Positions 26,503-37,711 of a DNA stretch of 38,125 nucleotides are shown here, piece after piece. The DNA is from Flavobacteriales bacterium (lineage in GTDB: Bacteria > Bacteroidota > Bacteroidia > Flavobacteriales_D > Sanyastnellaceae): the NCBI GenBank assembly GCA_947462725.1, contig CANHPZ010000008.1:1-38125 (forward strand). The letters are read 5' to 3'. Position 1 is the stretch's first letter. Every line of letters starts with the position of its first letter. Position numbers and translations under genes: made by a program. The notes under the pieces were generated by a model, which searched no databases, had not been told where the DNA came from, and saw only the letters and a program-made list of their open reading frames with translations.

Positions 26503-26611
26503 CGGATAGTATAAAACGAATGCCGAATGTACACGCTTAACCTCAGTTCATTCGACGCAGAAAAACCGAATTATCGCCCTTTACTTGTTAATCAGAATTT
26601 AGGGCATAAAA

Positions 26612-26713
26612 AAAAGGCAAGCCCCTTTTATCGCACCGCTACAACCGTCTGCCTTTGCTGCCTTCCGGCCCTGGAGGATTTGACAGGAGCTGGTCGTAAA
26701 AGACTTGCCCTTT
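26612..26713 (-). ncRNA. ffs: Bacterial small signal recognition particle RNA (4.5S-like)
   Basis: Minus strand reads gggcaagtcttttacgaccagctcctgtcaaatcctccagggccggaaggcagcaaaggcagacggttgtagcggtgcgataaaaggggcttgccttttttt. It has the conserved CAGG-CCGGAAGG-AGCA apical core, terminal pairing GGCAAG/CUUGCC and a 3' T tract. Confidence 0.92.
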
Positions 26714-26718
26714 GCCGG

Positions 26719-28380: not shown

Positions 28381-30675
28381 TTATTGCTTAATCAATGGCT
28401 TCACTTGAGATGAAGTTCCATTTACCAATTGCACGAGGTAGTAACCTGCAGGCAATTCACTGAGGTCGGCTGCAATTTGCATGGTTGAACCAGACACGTT
28501 GTAGCTCAGTGAGTGAACCAAGCGCCCTTCGGCACCATAAACATTCAATGTCAATGTTTTTTGGATATCCAATGCATTTGCATTCACAATGATTCCTCCG
28601 TTGGTTGGGTTTGGATAGAGAGAGAAGTCTACTTCGAGACCATTGTTAATACCCAATCCCTGACCTGCGTTGAAGACGCATGAACCATCATCGTAGTTAG
28701 CTTGAGGATTGTAGTTAAGCGCTGCTGCATCCATGCAACCGGCAATCATGCCACAAGTTGAATTCACTCCAATCAAATCAGAACCATTAGCTCCGTAGAA
28801 AAGTGAACCTTCGGCGTACATGGTGTTTGATGAAATCATGTAATAAGCACCATTCCAACCATCGCCCCATGAATCATTCATAACAACCTCGTAGCAACCG
28901 TCTGGAACGCAAACACTCGTATTGTACCAACCCCAGCTAGAGTAGCCAGAACCACTGCTGTATGTAACACTATCCTCTCCTACAAGGCTCCAGCTGATTT
29001 CTGAACCCCAATTGCCGGTTGTAACAGTCACGCTGAGCAAATTTTGATTGCAATCCAAAGGATATTGGCAAGAACCATCATCATCAGTTGCCATAGGATT
29101 GTAGTTCAATGCGAGTGCATCTGTGCAACCTAAAACGACTGGAGCACAACCTTCTGCATTAACTCCAAAATAAGCTGTACCAAAGTTTCCGCTCGCTAGG
29201 TTGTAAGAACCCGAAAGTGCTCCATTCATGTATACTTCCATATAGCCCGTGCCGTCCCATCCGTCACCAAATGAATCGAACATTTGAATGGTATAGCAAC
29301 CATCGGCCATGCAAGCATAAGAAGAGGCCACTCCAGTTACGGAAGCCGCAACGACAGCGCCTGACGCGTCAACCACTATATAAGATGCTTCATTTACAAA
29401 CGTTCCAGGATAGAGAATGAACTGAGCAACACTTCCAGCGCAGTCGTTCATATATATGCAAGAGCCATTGTCTTGAGCTGCCAGCGGATCATAATTCACA
29501 GCAGTAGAGTCCGTGCAGCCAATGGTAGGATAAACGCATGAGTTATCACTCAAGTTGGCTTCCACATTGTAATTTAGTGCAGTCGGGTCGGTGCAACCGA
29601 ATATTGGACCACATGTACCGTCGATGCTGAATGGTGCACTCTCGAATTGAGCAGTTACTGATGGATGAGCATTAATTACCTGCACACCATTCACATTCAC
29701 CCAGAAATAACCATTGTACCAGCCTAATGGACCTGTGTTGTTAATCATATTCGCCGTGTAACACACACCGGGGCGCAAGCATATTTGAGCGTTGACAATT
29801 GAACCACTGTTCAAACCGGTGGCATAATAAACTTCATTTCCGGCGTCGTCTACAATTTGTAATTCAACTTGATTACCATTTGAGAACGTGCATATGTAAA
29901 GAGCTGCCATTACGCTACCGGCACCATTGCAATATTGACAAGAACCATTATCGATGGTTGCAAGTGCGTTATAGTTAGCAGCAGTCGCATCCATACAACC
30001 TTCGATGATGCATGAGCCATTATCTGAATTGGCCGCAGAATCATAATTCGCAGCTGCAGGATTGGTGCATCCAAACACCCAAGCCATGCATGATCCATCA
30101 TCGATGGTTGCCATCGGATTGTAGTTCATTGCTATCGAATCTGTGCAACCGGCGTAAACGCAAGTCCCGTTATCGAAAATAGCAGTAGGATTGAAGTTTA
30201 CCGCTGAAGCATTTGTGCAGCCTTCTGTATTCGCGCCACAAGCAACTGTCATGGTGTATAGGCCCTCTTGAATTGAAAAGCCACCGCAACGAATCAAGTA
30301 AGATTCGCCAGCAGTTACGCTAAAAATTACGCGACTTTGAAATGCGCAATAGTCATCGTTCTCGGCCAAACAAATTAGGCCATCGCATGTGCCTGAGTAA
30401 ATATGAAGGCGAGTATCAAAGCTGCTACCGCAAGTTGAAACGGCCGCTGCCCCTGTTTCAGAGGCCGTGTAGCTGTACCAAATCTGACCGCCCGTTCCTT
30501 CGTTGGCGCATAAGCTTGATCCTGATGTAGGAACACCAACAGTAGAACCCGTGTAAGAAAGTCCACATTCCACCGGAATCGCAGAATCACACGTTGCACC
30601 AGGAATGTTTTGAGCATTAATCGATGCTGAAAAACCAAAGGCAATCGTAATTAGACATGCGTAAATAAATCTCAT
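28381..30675 (-). CDS. T9SS type A sorting domain protein with GCTxxxAxNYxxxAxxDxGSC repeats and DSxGDGWxG modules
   Basis: Signal peptide MRFIYACLITIAFGFSASINAQ; eight Cys-bounded repeats; FDSFGDGWDG and NDSWGDGWNG; C-terminal SLYPNPTNGGIIVNANA…AGYYLVQLVNGTSSQVKPLIKQ. Confidence 0.92.
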   Translation of the reverse strand: MRFIYACLITIAFGFSASINAQNIPGATCDSAIPVECGLSYTGSTVGVPTSGSSLCANEGTGGQIWYSYTASETGAAAVSTCGSSFDTRLHIYSGTCDGLICLAENDDYCAFQSRVIFSVTAGESYLIRCGGFSIQEGLYTMTVACGANTEGCTNASAVNFNPTAIFDNGTCVYAGCTDSIAMNYNPMATIDDGSCMAWVFGCTNPAAANYDSAANSDNGSCIIEGCMDATAANYNALATIDNGSCQYCNGAGSVMAALYICTFSNGNQVELQIVDDAGNEVYYATGLNSGSIVNAQICLRPGVCYTANMINNTGPLGWYNGYFWVNVNGVQVINAHPSVTAQFESAPFSIDGTCGPIFGCTDPTALNYNVEANLSDNSCVYPTIGCTDSTAVNYDPLAAQDNGSCIYMNDCAGSVAQFILYPGTFVNEASYIVVDASGAVVAASVTGVASSYACMADGCYTIQMFDSFGDGWDGTGYMEVYMNGALSGSYNLASGNFGTAYFGVNAEGCAPVVLGCTDALALNYNPMATDDDGSCQYPLDCNQNLLSVTVTTGNWGSEISWSLVGEDSVTYSSGSGYSSWGWYNTSVCVPDGCYEVVMNDSWGDGWNGAYYMISSNTMYAEGSLFYGANGSDLIGVNSTCGMIAGCMDAAALNYNPQANYDDGSCVFNAGQGLGINNGLEVDFSLYPNPTNGGIIVNANALDIQKTLTLNVYGAEGRLVHSLSYNVSGSTMQIAADLSELPAGYYLVQLVNGTSSQVKPLIKQ

Positions 30676-31976: not shown

Positions 31977-32114
31977 AGGCCAAAATTACTATGGAAATTA
32001 TGGTTTATCCAGAATACCAATTATCTTTATCCTTCACAATTTCAATTTTGATTGCCATATTTAAGTATTTGCTGGCAACCATTTAACATTGTATTCGTCT
32101 AATCAATAACCCTT

Positions 32115-32696
32115 GTGCCTGAAACCAAGCAATTGCAAGCATTGATCGATGGCTGTCTCAAAGGAGACAGACGATCGCAGCAAGCGGTCCATAAATTATT
32201 TTATGGAAAAATGAAGGCCGTATGTATGCGTTACACAAGGGACTCCGATCAAGCCATGGACGTGCTACAAGAAGGATTTCTCAAGGTTTTCAATAACCTG
32301 GACAAATTCACAGGTGTAGGCACTTTCGAAGGTTGGATACGGAGAATTATGGTGAATTTATCGATTGATCGATTCCGCAAACTCAAACATGATTTTGTTT
32401 TGCTTTCTGACCAAGATAGCATAGAACGTTACGAGGGTGATGTGAATGAAGATTACGAAGAATCGAACGAGTTAGAGGAGATATACTCGATAACTCCGGA
32501 GCAAATCATAGATGCTATGCAACAACTGACTCCGGCATATCGAACTGTTTTTAACCTCTATGTTTATGAAGATTACACGCATCAGGATATTGCTGAAGCG
32601 TTGGGAATTAGCGTAGGAACTTCTAAAAGTAACTACGCTAAGGCCAAAAAAAATATGAAGAAATTGCTTATTAAGAATTTGCATCAGTTGAAATGA
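32115..32696 (+). CDS. ECF-type sigma-70 family RNA polymerase sigma factor
   Basis: MDVLQEGFLKVFNNLDKFTGVGTFEGWIRRIMVNLSIDRFRKLK (region 2) and LTPAYRTVFNLYVYEDYTHQDIAEALGISVGTSKSNYAKAKKNMKKLL (region 4). GTG start. Confidence 0.94.
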   Translation: MPETKQLQALIDGCLKGDRRSQQAVHKLFYGKMKAVCMRYTRDSDQAMDVLQEGFLKVFNNLDKFTGVGTFEGWIRRIMVNLSIDRFRKLKHDFVLLSDQDSIERYEGDVNEDYEESNELEEIYSITPEQIIDAMQQLTPAYRTVFNLYVYEDYTHQDIAEALGISVGTSKSNYAKAKKNMKKLLIKNLHQLK

Positions 32697-33967
32697 AAAA
32701 GAACTTTACTCCTTTCGAACACAGTTTAAAGGACAAAATGGAGAAATTCGAGTTCCCTTACGAACAGGGATCATGGACTCTTCTGCAACGTCAGATGGGC
32801 ATGGCCAAAACAGGTGGCACTGTTTGGATTTTTTCTTTGGTATCAACAATACTTGTCTTATCCGGTGGAGCTGTTGCTCTTTATCGCAGTCAGCACGTTC
32901 CTTCTACAGCAAAAAAGGCTTCAACCCAAGAACACTGCGCGATATCATCGTTGTCAATTACACGCGGAGCTTCTCATGATAATTCGATTGGATTTGTACC
33001 CCAAACCGACAACTCGCTGTTACAATCAACAGTCAGCCAAAGCCATTCTTCCATTCTTAATTCATCTGAACCTAGTTCTAAGGCACCTAATCAAACTTTT
33101 GTATCAACTACAGATGCTTCGGTTATTGATGTGAATACCAATTTCAATGCGAACGCCGGATTAACGGCACCTTCTTCGAATCCAAGTATCAAGGCAGATA
33201 ATGTGATCGCGTTTCAGTGCAACGTTCGTCGCGCATGTCAGGGAGAGGAAGTTGAATTCCAAACCACCAACGGTCCCAAAACAGGTAGTTACTTGTGGAA
33301 CTTTGGCGATGGTCACTTCAGCGATGATGTAAATCCAAAGCACAAATTTGCAAAGGCCGGAAAATATGATGTTTCACTCTCAATCACTAGCGACAATGGG
33401 CAAATCAACACTACTGTCGTAAATGACATGATAATGATTGAAGCCGCACCAGATGCCGATTTCGTATGGCAATTCATCAACTCCGATCCAAATTCTCCGG
33501 AAGTACGCATTGTCAATCGCAGCGAAGGTGGAAATAACTATGAATGGAGTAACGGTAATCAATCAGTGGTTGATGCTTCTGGAACCGTTTTCAAACTGAA
33601 GTCCTCAGGACGCCAAATGATTGCGCTCAACGCCAAGAACGAAGCAGGTTGTTCAGACGGATCCGTTAAGCACATTTCCATCAACACTGATTTCACCCTA
33701 GATGCCCCTCAATCATGGTCTTTTGCGAAAGGAGCCTTCATGCCTGCCGGGCTCAAGAAAAGTAAAGTCGACTTCACAATGACTCTCATCGATTCATTTG
33801 GAAACAATGTATTTGAAACCTCCTCGCGTGTGAAAGGATGGGATGGAAAATTACCGAATGGCTCATCTGCCAAGGTCGGTGATGTGTACTCCTATATTAT
33901 CATTATCACCAATGACCTCACAGAAGAGCAGAAATACTTCAATGGAATATTAACAGTTTCTCCTTAA
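32693..33967 (+). CDS. Single-TM PKD-domain protein with degenerate gliding-motility/type-B-like C-terminal domain; candidate anti-sigma or sensor partner
   Basis: No signal peptide: cytoplasmic MKKNFTPFEHSLKDKMEKFEFPYEQGSWTLLQRQM, TM TVWIFSLVSTILVLSGGAVALY, PKD YLWNFGDGHFSDDVNPKHKFAKAGKYDVSLSI, C-term FTMTLIDSFGNNVFETSSRVKGWDGKLPNG…YSYIIIITNDLTEEQKYFNGILTVSP. ATGA overlap with the sigma gene. Confidence 0.8.
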   Translation: MKKNFTPFEHSLKDKMEKFEFPYEQGSWTLLQRQMGMAKTGGTVWIFSLVSTILVLSGGAVALYRSQHVPSTAKKASTQEHCAISSLSITRGASHDNSIGFVPQTDNSLLQSTVSQSHSSILNSSEPSSKAPNQTFVSTTDASVIDVNTNFNANAGLTAPSSNPSIKADNVIAFQCNVRRACQGEEVEFQTTNGPKTGSYLWNFGDGHFSDDVNPKHKFAKAGKYDVSLSITSDNGQINTTVVNDMIMIEAAPDADFVWQFINSDPNSPEVRIVNRSEGGNNYEWSNGNQSVVDASGTVFKLKSSGRQMIALNAKNEAGCSDGSVKHISINTDFTLDAPQSWSFAKGAFMPAGLKKSKVDFTMTLIDSFGNNVFETSSRVKGWDGKLPNGSSAKVGDVYSYIIIITNDLTEEQKYFNGILTVSP

Positions 33968-34000
33968 CCAAAACTAAACTGCACACTGAGTTTAGAGAGA

Positions 34001-34028
34001 ACCGTAACGTATGTTACGGTTTTTTTTT
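34001..34028 (+). terminator. Intrinsic terminator after the sigma/PKD operon
   Basis: accgtaac-gtat-gttacggt followed by tttttttt. Confidence 0.88.
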
Positions 34029-34126: not shown

Positions 34127-37100
34127 GTGTATTCGAGAACTGGCGTGAATTGGTATAAACTAATCATATCATCGTTGTTGCTTGTATGCGTGCATAACGC
34201 ATATGCACAATTTTCTGTAACTGCATCATCCGCCGATGCTTGCCAATGCACGGGCGTTTTAAACTACACGCCGAGCAATTTAAGTGCGACCTACAGCTAT
34301 CAACTTTTCGATGCGAATGATGCACTAATCGACCAAGGATTTAACCTTACAGGTAATCTAAACCTTGGTGGTTTATGCCCAACCGTATTTCACATCGCAG
34401 TTACGGAAGCAACCGGAATTAGCCAGGATCATTACTTCAATGTTCCGGCGGGTTCTACAAATATTGGCGAAGCCCATAAAACAAACGTATGCTTAGAGCA
34501 ATACCCCAACATTGCCACAACCTATGATTTGACGCCAGAATTATCGTCGTTTAATGCAAGCGGAATTTGGAATACTCCTGAAAACTATATCATTCCCAAT
34601 TCTGACCTTTCATCTATCGCTATCTGGCAAGTGAATCCTGCAAATCCAAATGAAACGGTCTTGTCATTCGAAAATGGTTGGTATACCTATACTGAAAGTA
34701 TAGGCGGCTGTGATGTAACCTCTGGGATTTACATCCAAACCAACGATGTAGGCTTAACCACGACCTATGTGATTTGTGAAACTTACGAGCCATTCAACAT
34801 GACGGATTTCCTTCAAGGAACCCCAGATACCATCGGACAATGGTTCGATGCCAATAATAATATTGTGCCCGGCGGTATTTTCGATCCGTCAACCATGAAC
34901 GAGGCTTTGTTCACCTATGTGATCAGCAATTTATCAGGATGTAATCCTGTGTTCAGGAGCATGTATGTAGATGAACAAACGCAACGCAATGCCGGCGAGG
35001 ATGCAGAGGTACTGGTTTGTGCCGGTAGCAGCAACTTTAACATGCTACAGCTATTGGGCGGAACTCCTGATGATGACGCTCCCAATGCAGTCAGCGACGG
35101 ATATTGGATACATCCAGGGGGGGGCAATTTGATGCCAATGGGGAATGACATATTTTCTCCCTCTACCATGGTTGATGGTATATATACCTATATCACAAAC
35201 TCCGCAGCCCCCTGTTCAACTAATTCAGCAACACTGACAATTACATTTACCAGCGTCAACCCTTCGGGTATTGGAGCAGTCGTGCAATTGTGCTCGAGCG
35301 ATGGGCCACTCAATATGCTCAACGCGCTTGAAGGCAATCCAATGCCCGGAGGTACTTGGACAAACAGTTTAGGCGCTGAGGTAGACGGCACTTTCAATCC
35401 ATTATCTGAACCCGCCGGCAACTATGCGTATTACTACCCCAACGTGGGATGCACTTCAAGTGGAGCCGTTTTGAGCCTTAGCGTTGAGGCTCCAAAAAAT
35501 GCGGGTAATGACCACACAGAGACAATCTGTCAAAGCGATGCCAATATCAACTTAGGCACTCTGTTAAGCAGCAATGCCTCATCTGGTGGAATATGGACCT
35601 TAGGCAGTAATGCTGTGAGTAACATTTATGATCCCTTAAACGCTGGGGTTTTCAACTTTGAATATACAGTGCAAGGAATTGAATGCCCCGATGATGCTGC
35701 GAATATTACCGTTTATGTGCAACCCTCCGTTGCAGAACCTATCACTCAATCGGTCTTTTTATGCAGTCTGCAAGATCCGGTAAATTTGACTGACTATTTT
35801 CCAAGTTTAGCCGATGTGTACTTCGAAGATTTCAGCGGAGCATTAATAAGTTCTGCATTCGATCCCGCATTGCAATCCACCACAACGATTAATGTCATCA
35901 ATCCTTCCGGTAACGCTTGCCCTGATCAAGAAGGACAACTCACAGTCCATGTTGTATACCCCGCAATCCAGAACGGAACGACAACTATAGAAGTTTGCCG
36001 TAGCTCTGATTTTTATAACCTCAACAGCGCTTTACCAATTTCTTCTGTTGGCCTTGGTTCATGGGCAGATGTAAATGGAAACCCTATAGTTAATCTCGTA
36101 TCTACCAATTTCATCGGCACTCAAACCTATTACTATGACGTCATACAACAAATTCAATGCGGCGGCAACCATCTTCAAATAGACTTAGTGAGCTTTACCC
36201 CAAATGATGCCGGGGCAGATGAAGCCGAAATATTTTGCTATACCGACGGTCCTGAATTACTTAGCACGCTGCTGCCTGTATCGGCAACCTCTCAAGGACA
36301 ATGGTTCTATAATGGTGCTGCTTTCAATTCGGCTCTTTTCGATCCAGGCAACAACTTATCGGGAAATTACATTTTTCGTATACCCGACAATGGACCTTGC
36401 CCTGCTGATGAAGCAAATCTTCAACTTACTGTCCAACAGGGAATCAATTACACTGCAGGCAATGACGTTCATGTTTGTGCGGGAAGTCCATTTCAGTCGA
36501 TAGGTTTTCCGTCATCCATCGGCACTAGTTATGTGTGGACACCGGCATCCGGACTGAGCAACCCTAATTCTGCTCAACCCACTGTAGACATTCCAGCCTC
36601 TGTTTTGCAAACAAGCACAGTAACCTATTCTGTATTTGCTGACGATGGAGTATGTACATTAACAGATTATGTTGACGTAACAACTGAGCCCAATCCCATT
36701 GTTAATTTACAGGAGTCATACGCAATCTGTTTCGGTGAATTCCTTACATTGACCAATCCCTCGGAAGCCACTTACCAATGGACTCCAGTTAATTTGTTCG
36801 ATAATCCGAACACACCAAATACAACAATTCAACCCTCAGCATCAGTCTACATTGGCGTTGAAGCCACAAGTGATTTTGGATGCACAACCTTGGCGCAAAG
36901 TCGTGTTGTGGTCAATCCACTTCCAATTCTTGTCCTAGATCCAGCGCCAGTAACAGGGTGTCCCCCTTTTGATTTCAATTTATCTCCTGATACAGCTAGT
37001 GCCAACATAGATCAAATAGTTTGGAATGTCGCCGGTCTAGGAACTTTCATTACTGACACTTTAAGCGTTGTGCTTACGCAGCCTGGCAATTACGATATTC

Positions 37101-37711
37101 ATGCTACTGCAATTTCAGCAGATAATTGCAATAGCACCTATTTCTTCGAAGAAATTGCTGAAGTATTCCCTAGGCCGGTAGCAAGTTTTACATCCACGCC
37201 ATACGAGTTAAGCACACTGGATCCTGAAGCAGAGTTTTTCAATCACTCCGTTGGCGCGTTGAATTACACTTGGCAATTCGACACTTATGGAGTAAGTGAA
37301 GAAAGTAATCCCATTTTCTCTTTCCCCAATGAAGCAAGCGATAACTTCCGCGTTTGCCTCACTGCTGAGAATCAATTTGGCTGCATGGATACAACGTGTC
37401 GCAATATCTACATGAACGCTGAGTACGCCATTTTTGCCCCTAATGCGTTTACTCCCAATAACGATGGTGACAATGATGTATGGAAACCCATCCTGCGAGG
37501 ATATAGCGCCGACGGGTATGATTTAACCATCTTTAATCGATGGGGTGAAGCAGTCTTTCAGTCCAATGACTCGAACTTGCCTTGGACGGGAGAAATTCGC
37601 AACGGTGATTACTTTGGCACCAATGAGGTTTACAATTGGCAATTGCAGTTGCGTCAGGAATTCTCCGCTAAAGAAATTGTTTTCAAAGGCAGTGTACTGC
37701 TCATGCGATAA
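34127..37711 (+). CDS. T9SS type B / gliding motility-associated C-terminal domain protein with tandem Cys-bounded repeats and a PKD-like domain
   Basis: Signal peptide …WYKLIISSLLLVCVHNAYAQ; about seven 65-80 aa repeats; C-terminal FAPNAFTPNNDGDNDVWKPILRGYSADGYDLTIFNRWGEAVFQSNDSNLPWTGE…FKGSVLLMR. Start may be GTG 34145. Confidence 0.9.
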   Translation: MYSRTGVNWYKLIISSLLLVCVHNAYAQFSVTASSADACQCTGVLNYTPSNLSATYSYQLFDANDALIDQGFNLTGNLNLGGLCPTVFHIAVTEATGISQDHYFNVPAGSTNIGEAHKTNVCLEQYPNIATTYDLTPELSSFNASGIWNTPENYIIPNSDLSSIAIWQVNPANPNETVLSFENGWYTYTESIGGCDVTSGIYIQTNDVGLTTTYVICETYEPFNMTDFLQGTPDTIGQWFDANNNIVPGGIFDPSTMNEALFTYVISNLSGCNPVFRSMYVDEQTQRNAGEDAEVLVCAGSSNFNMLQLLGGTPDDDAPNAVSDGYWIHPGGGNLMPMGNDIFSPSTMVDGIYTYITNSAAPCSTNSATLTITFTSVNPSGIGAVVQLCSSDGPLNMLNALEGNPMPGGTWTNSLGAEVDGTFNPLSEPAGNYAYYYPNVGCTSSGAVLSLSVEAPKNAGNDHTETICQSDANINLGTLLSSNASSGGIWTLGSNAVSNIYDPLNAGVFNFEYTVQGIECPDDAANITVYVQPSVAEPITQSVFLCSLQDPVNLTDYFPSLADVYFEDFSGALISSAFDPALQSTTTINVINPSGNACPDQEGQLTVHVVYPAIQNGTTTIEVCRSSDFYNLNSALPISSVGLGSWADVNGNPIVNLVSTNFIGTQTYYYDVIQQIQCGGNHLQIDLVSFTPNDAGADEAEIFCYTDGPELLSTLLPVSATSQGQWFYNGAAFNSALFDPGNNLSGNYIFRIPDNGPCPADEANLQLTVQQGINYTAGNDVHVCAGSPFQSIGFPSSIGTSYVWTPASGLSNPNSAQPTVDIPASVLQTSTVTYSVFADDGVCTLTDYVDVTTEPNPIVNLQESYAICFGEFLTLTNPSEATYQWTPVNLFDNPNTPNTTIQPSASVYIGVEATSDFGCTTLAQSRVVVNPLPILVLDPAPVTGCPPFDFNLSPDTASANIDQIVWNVAGLGTFITDTLSVVLTQPGNYDIHATAISADNCNSTYFFEEIAEVFPRPVASFTSTPYELSTLDPEAEFFNHSVGALNYTWQFDTYGVSEESNPIFSFPNEASDNFRVCLTAENQFGCMDTTCRNIYMNAEYAIFAPNAFTPNNDGDNDVWKPILRGYSADGYDLTIFNRWGEAVFQSNDSNLPWTGEIRNGDYFGTNEVYNWQLQLRQEFSAKEIVFKGSVLLMR

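Follow-up and report, generated by a model that had tools for sequence, protein, structure and literature searches.

The Dma anti-sigma factors of Bacteroides consist of a sigma-binding segment, a transmembrane (TM) helix, a disordered tether and an envelope domain (PMC13088901). In the PorA-PorXY-SigP pathway of Porphyromonas gingivalis, genes of the type IX secretion system (T9SS) are controlled by an ECF sigma factor. Upstream of it acts PorA, a surface-located protein that carries a signal peptide and a C-terminal domain (CTD) and works through a two-component route (PMC7712824, PMC4800418). The SM6 (sigma-ECF) regulon of Flavobacterium psychrophilum comprises an ECF sigma/anti-sigma pair, the small RNA (sRNA) Rfp11, band-7 proteins and T9SS genes; its sigma factor is unassigned, and no CTD-like anti-sigma factor is described for it (PMC9723704). 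T9SS cargo proteins with a type-B CTD are anchored by PorP/SprF (PMC9143113), and RsgI of Clostridium thermocellum and the FecR-type anti-sigma factors combine a cytoplasmic inhibitor, a TM helix and an extracytoplasmic sensor (PMC12203970, PMC9249621).

The window analysed here, a 38,125-nt stretch of DNA from a Flavobacteriales bacterium (contig CANHPZ010000008.1), contains an ECF sigma factor gene followed by the gene for a membrane partner. The pair is best read as resembling the Dma family, in which a mock T9SS cargo tail on a tether would take the place of the outer-membrane barrel. Like the Dma proteins, which also come from the Bacteroidota, the partner is predicted to have an N-terminal segment, a TM helix, a long disordered tether and a C-terminal envelope domain, and its gene adjoins that of an ECF sigma factor. 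The Dma proteins end in an outer-membrane beta-barrel, whereas the partner ends in PKD-Ig-CTD beta-sandwiches, the comparison being one of layout and not of sequence. If a T9SS link holds here, the locus also shares with the PorA pathway a CTD protein upstream of a T9SS-controlling ECF sigma factor, the difference being that in this locus the CTD forms part of the sigma factor's own membrane partner. CGT-box ECF promoters at an ECF pair and at an sRNA recall the SM6 regulon (PMC9723704), the sRNA being likened to Rfp11 by regulon context only. The partner shares the PKD-Ig-CTD tail and the CHU_C fold with type-B cargos, but it is predicted to lack a signal peptide and to be anchored in the inner membrane, has lost the NRWG motif and scores below the family cut-offs. 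RsgI and the FecR-type anti-sigma factors share the general topology and differ from the partner in their sensor domains. RsgI senses polysaccharides, and FecR senses a TonB-dependent receptor.

Sigma factor gene and domain organization of the membrane partner

The sigma factor gene (32115..32696, forward strand, as are all features below unless indicated) starts with GTG and encodes a 193-aa product that matches Sigma70_r2 (3e-15), r4_2 (2e-16) and TIGR02937 (94.5 bits; cut-off, 42.9). Regions sigma2 and sigma4 are present and sigma3 and 1.1 are absent, which assigns the product to the ECF class. The stop codon overlaps the start codon of the partner gene (32693..33967, 424 aa) as ATGA at positions 32693-32696; the two open reading frames and their overlap lie where the initial annotation had placed them.

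An AlphaFold2 (AF2) model of the partner was built on 49 orthologues. As had been proposed, the protein is predicted to lack a cleavable signal and to have one TM helix (residues 44-67; 32822..32893), which is preceded by 43 residues with two predicted helices (residues 7-18 and 25-34). On the basis of the model and of a conserved pattern (F-E..L....E-x-P.....W), these helices (residues 7-34; 32711..32794) are proposed to be a cytoplasmic sigma-binding segment. Profile searches of the N-terminus returned no match to an anti-sigma domain, and the N-terminus is weakly similar to those of other sigma partners of the same genome. Downstream of the TM helix, low pLDDT values (<50 at residues 76-163 and 165-167) and low conservation mark a disordered tether of ~90 residues (76-167; 32918..33193), which, when extended, would be long enough to approach the outer membrane. 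The tether leads to the PKD domain (residues 170-250; 33200..33442; PKD_4 match at 178-243, 4e-15). The initial annotation had recognized this domain but counted it as the only one, whereas the model contains a second Ig/PKD-like domain (residues 251-331; 33443..33685), which gives a 98.1% profile match to the first, and a type-B CTD (CHU_C)-like domain that has lost the PNxDG motif (residues 332-424; 33686..33964). All three beta-domains are modelled confidently (pLDDT about 90-98; 90-97 for the CTD-like domain). Translational coupling, this topology and the conserved autoregulatory promoter described below strengthen the anti-sigma role that we infer for the partner.

Homology of the C-terminal domain to type-B cargo tails

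The C-terminus of the partner and the T9SS type-B sorting domain are genuinely homologous. A resemblance to the CTD of the neighbouring cargo had been noted before and turned out to be stronger than claimed: partner residues 201-418 are co-linear with cargo residues 965-1188 (23% identity; BLAST E-value, 2e-14), and residues 332-424 match the cargo CTDs with a probability of 99.8% over 94 columns (hhalign E-value, 5e-30), compared with <2% for the negative controls, which were the PKD and Ig domains of the partner itself. The combination of a confident AF2 beta-domain and this profile-profile match identifies the C-terminus as a CTD homologue. Because the co-linear alignment with the neighbour's tail extends over all of residues 201-418, the sensor is the counterpart of a cargo tail rather than of a lone CTD. 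A Foldseek search against PDB was too unspecific to establish CTD identity, as GhpA grappling-hook domains ranked at the top, followed by many Ig-like proteins.

In the window's partner, CHU_C matches residues 359-414 (3.6e-4), although its 21 bits fall short of the cut-off (27), and TIGR04131 gives no match, and among the other members of the anti-sigma family the two profiles match 34/49 and 28/49, respectively, at E<0.01. The sequence FMPAGL had been taken as a substitute for the type-B motif FTPNNDGDND. This is not the case: the F-M/L-P element is conserved in nearly all relatives of the partner, and the motif has been shortened away just upstream of it. The degeneracy of the motif is thus real in this lineage but not family-wide, since PNxDGxxD is retained in 41 of the 79 members. 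The NRWG motif is found in only 2/79 anti-sigma family members versus 47/66 cargos, and the last residue of the anti-sigma tails is often P in place of R/K. Because NRWG has been lost, the tail may no longer be recognized by T9SS parts.

Conservation and origin of the gene pair

Co-occurrence of the sigma gene with a PKD-CTD partner in related genomes is order-wide, as a survey of genomic neighbourhoods revealed. Full-length homologues of the partner were found in at least about 90 of the 114 genomes of the family and in at least 41 of the 185 other genomes of the order; the sigma gene adjoins the partner gene in nearly all loci within the family and in 20/20 loci examined outside it. The start of the partner gene overlaps the sigma gene in many genera, and the genes are coupled or nearly coupled in relatives. 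Among the sampled genomes of the phylum outside the order, no full-length homologue was detected at E<=1e-35, the matches being cargo tails only. A phylogeny of 70 tails places every anti-sigma tail on one side of a branch with an SH-aLRT value of 100; the sensor domains have a single origin and form one clade apart from the cargo tails. The group codes f1, f2, f4, f8 and f9 are used here for families (the relatives are labelled Flavobacteriales, and one Crocinitomicaceae); the labels of metagenome-assembled genomes are unreliable.

The gene order mnmA (reverse strand), sigma, partner and giant cargo recurs across genera within the family, and the divergent neighbour is a malate dehydrogenase gene in the two loci outside the family in which it was identified. 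In many loci of the family, mnmA also adjoins a gene whose product is rich in repeats and has a type-A T9SS tail (764 aa; 28381-30675, reverse strand, in the window). The window additionally contains a Bacteroidales small SRP RNA (26611-26717, reverse strand; RF04183, 98.6 bits).

Neighbouring cargo gene and T9SS components

An intrinsic terminator (34000..34028; hairpin and T9 run, fold z -5.8) separates the pair from the gene for a T9SS type-B cargo, a giant surface protein of 1194 aa (34127..37711; TIGR04131, 40.8 bits) that is homologous to the sensor domains of the partner. Wherever a family-f1 locus extends far enough, such a cargo gene lies 3' of the pair; in locus L061 (6557-10348, genome G082), it is split over several reading frames. 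In loci of other families, a cargo is sometimes absent near the pair and an adjacent one is often missing, which shows that the pair is not tied to the neighbouring adhesin. The cargo gene was considered as a direct target of the sigma factor and rejected: GCAACC-N17-CGTC precedes it in only three loci and, given also the strong terminator in the window, sigma control of the cargo is unsupported by sequence. The genome itself encodes SprA and nine PorP/SprF proteins and contains 36 CHU_C matches above the cut-off. No PorP gene was identified in the conserved neighbourhood of the pair.

Promoter, small RNA and regulon

The sigma gene is preceded by an ECF-type promoter (32074..32102), in which a -35 element GGCAACC (32074-32080) and a -10 element CGTCTAA (32096-32102) are separated by 15 nt. 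The promoter (GGCAACC-N15-CGTC) lies ~40 bp 5' of the start codon, a distance that is constant within the genus, and the pattern matches once in the window (0.20 expected). The element GCAACC-N14-17-CGT is present at an equivalent position upstream of the sigma genes of 67/67 relatives, 49 of which have the strict form and 18 of which were read by eye from the sequences; the strict form occurred in 0/1340 shuffled sequences. By eye, the full element is missing from nine further sigma genes of the window's genome, and the nearest paralogue (locus L158) has GCAACC and a GTC box. These results indicate that the sigma factor probably autoregulates its expression through an AAC/CGT promoter.

The strict pattern gave 2-4 matches in each of eight genomes from the genus, versus 0-2 for a reversed control. 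The matches comprise the sigma gene, an sRNA (8/8 genomes) and a gene for a DUF5684 membrane protein (4/8; loci L196, L198, L205 and L207), and include no T9SS genes. At one further match (locus L189, genome G031), no clear gene follows, and another small RNA may be located there. A looser scan for GCAACC-N15-17-CGTC in the window's own genome was uninformative (12 matches versus 23 in the reversed control).

The sRNA (11668-11763 of contig C3 in the window's own genome, locus L212; also L177) is ~95 nt long and conserved, has the ECF promoter upstream and ends in a terminator. An initial covariance model was derived from nothing but the transcript and was thus blind to the promoter; it matched throughout the family and also in f2, f4 and f8. 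The strict promoter lies directly upstream of 50 of its 70 matches, and at least a looser one upstream of 64. In helices 1 and 3, changes occur on both sides at every pair and 97.3% of cells are paired, in an alignment that was fitted to the structure and hence favours covariation (slid controls fall to 46-61%); none of 500 shuffles reached as good a covariation score. An improved model found the sRNA in 115 of the 299 genomes of the order (102 among the 114 of the family, the others in f2, f4 and f8). This model (R2) had no match in f9 at E<=1e-4, and a match of the first model (R1) in one f9 genome (G295, locus L259) lacks the promoter and was judged false. Tandem second copies are present at loci L238, L255, L272 and L275. 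The sRNA stretch matches no Rfam family at gathering score, all listed matches being below it. Judged from its promoter, the sRNA appears to belong to the regulon of the sigma factor. In a search for sRNA targets, the conserved core had six matches in the window, slightly more than shuffled cores (mean of 1.2), but none convincingly at a gene start.

Paralogous systems in the same genome

The three sigma factors of this genome nearest to that of the window (P0001; 34-41% identity) all have TM partners; one of these carries a PKD domain, and another weakly matches an outer-membrane barrel. At L158 (891-2001), the partner of the closest paralogue (41%) is 186 aa long, probably has a single TM segment and contains no known domain. 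The ECF sigma gene at L164 (189-2019) is paired with a gene for a 424-aa TM partner whose C-terminus is weakly barrel-like (E-value, 0.04), as in Dma. In a second system, located behind a CHU_C cargo (L160, 1159-2395, contig C111), an ECF sigma gene overlaps the gene for a protein with a TM segment, a linker and a PKD domain, which is cut by the contig end.

Proposed mechanism and alternative interpretations

We assign a probability of about 0.6 to the interpretation that the pair is an autoregulated ECF sigma/anti-sigma switch whose anti-sigma factor carries a mock T9SS cargo tail probed by T9SS parts. The N-terminal helical segment would hold the sigma factor in the cytoplasm, from the inner membrane, and the TM helix and the ~90-residue tether would cross into the periplasm, where the PKD-Ig-CTD module, descended from a complete type-B cargo tail, would reach towards the outer membrane. 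There it would be probed by the handlers of real type-B tails, i.e. PorP/SprF-type barrels or the SprA translocon. Because type-B cargos bind PorP-like barrels (PMC9143113) and the genome encodes PorP/SprF and SprA, the tail has candidate partners. When traffic or anchoring changes, the tail may be released, occupied or pulled and the anti-sigma factor would let go of or lose the sigma factor; in the direction of response that we infer, the freed sigma factor would then transcribe its own operon, the ~95-nt sRNA and a few membrane genes. A link of the pair to T9SS or adhesin status, as the initial annotation had suggested, is plausible because the sensor derives from a cargo tail and a giant CTD cargo lies downstream in family f1.

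The same switch could operate with the tail as a generic periplasmic sensor of a ligand, envelope stress or the cell-wall state, its T9SS ancestry being merely historical. The near-complete loss of NRWG, the loss of PNxDG in about half of the members, the frequent C-terminal P, the lack of an identified PorP gene in the conserved neighbourhood and the restriction of strict promoter matches beyond the sigma gene to the sRNA and DUF5684 genes all fit such a sensor, but we consider it rather doubtful in view of the retention of the complete three-domain tail, CTD fold included, over many families and of the giant CTD cargo that follows the pair in every sufficiently long f1 locus.

If the tail were exported or inserted via the T9SS with its N-terminus remaining in the inner membrane, export itself would report a working translocon, loosely as FlgM export does in flagellar assembly; this would account for the long tether, the three-domain tail of a real cargo and the PNxDG motif kept by half of the family. 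A substrate anchored in the inner membrane would block the channel, however, and the window's copy falls below every cut-off, which makes this route improbable. It is more improbable still that the partner is no anti-sigma factor but a standard T9SS surface protein whose N-terminus is odd and long and whose gene is co-transcribed with the sigma gene by chance: the annotated domains are indeed confined to its C-terminal half, but it has a conserved cytoplasmic segment and no cleavable signal, its start overlaps the sigma gene in many genera, and its tail belongs to a clade separate from all cargo tails.

Biological implications

Building on the mock-tail switch, we tentatively propose that the order may monitor its T9SS by means of a membrane-tethered mock cargo that competes with real cargo for PorP/SprF or SprA, the sigma factor answering with a dedicated sRNA in what would be a T9SS counterpart of the sigma-E/RybB envelope response. 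The defined promoter and an sRNA family without an Rfam match offer ready readouts. A sigma partner bearing a cargo tail would provide a concrete, testable route from T9SS status to transcription beyond PorA-PorXY-SigP, and would widen the theme of tethered anti-sigma factors represented by Dma from barrels to secretion-tail domains.
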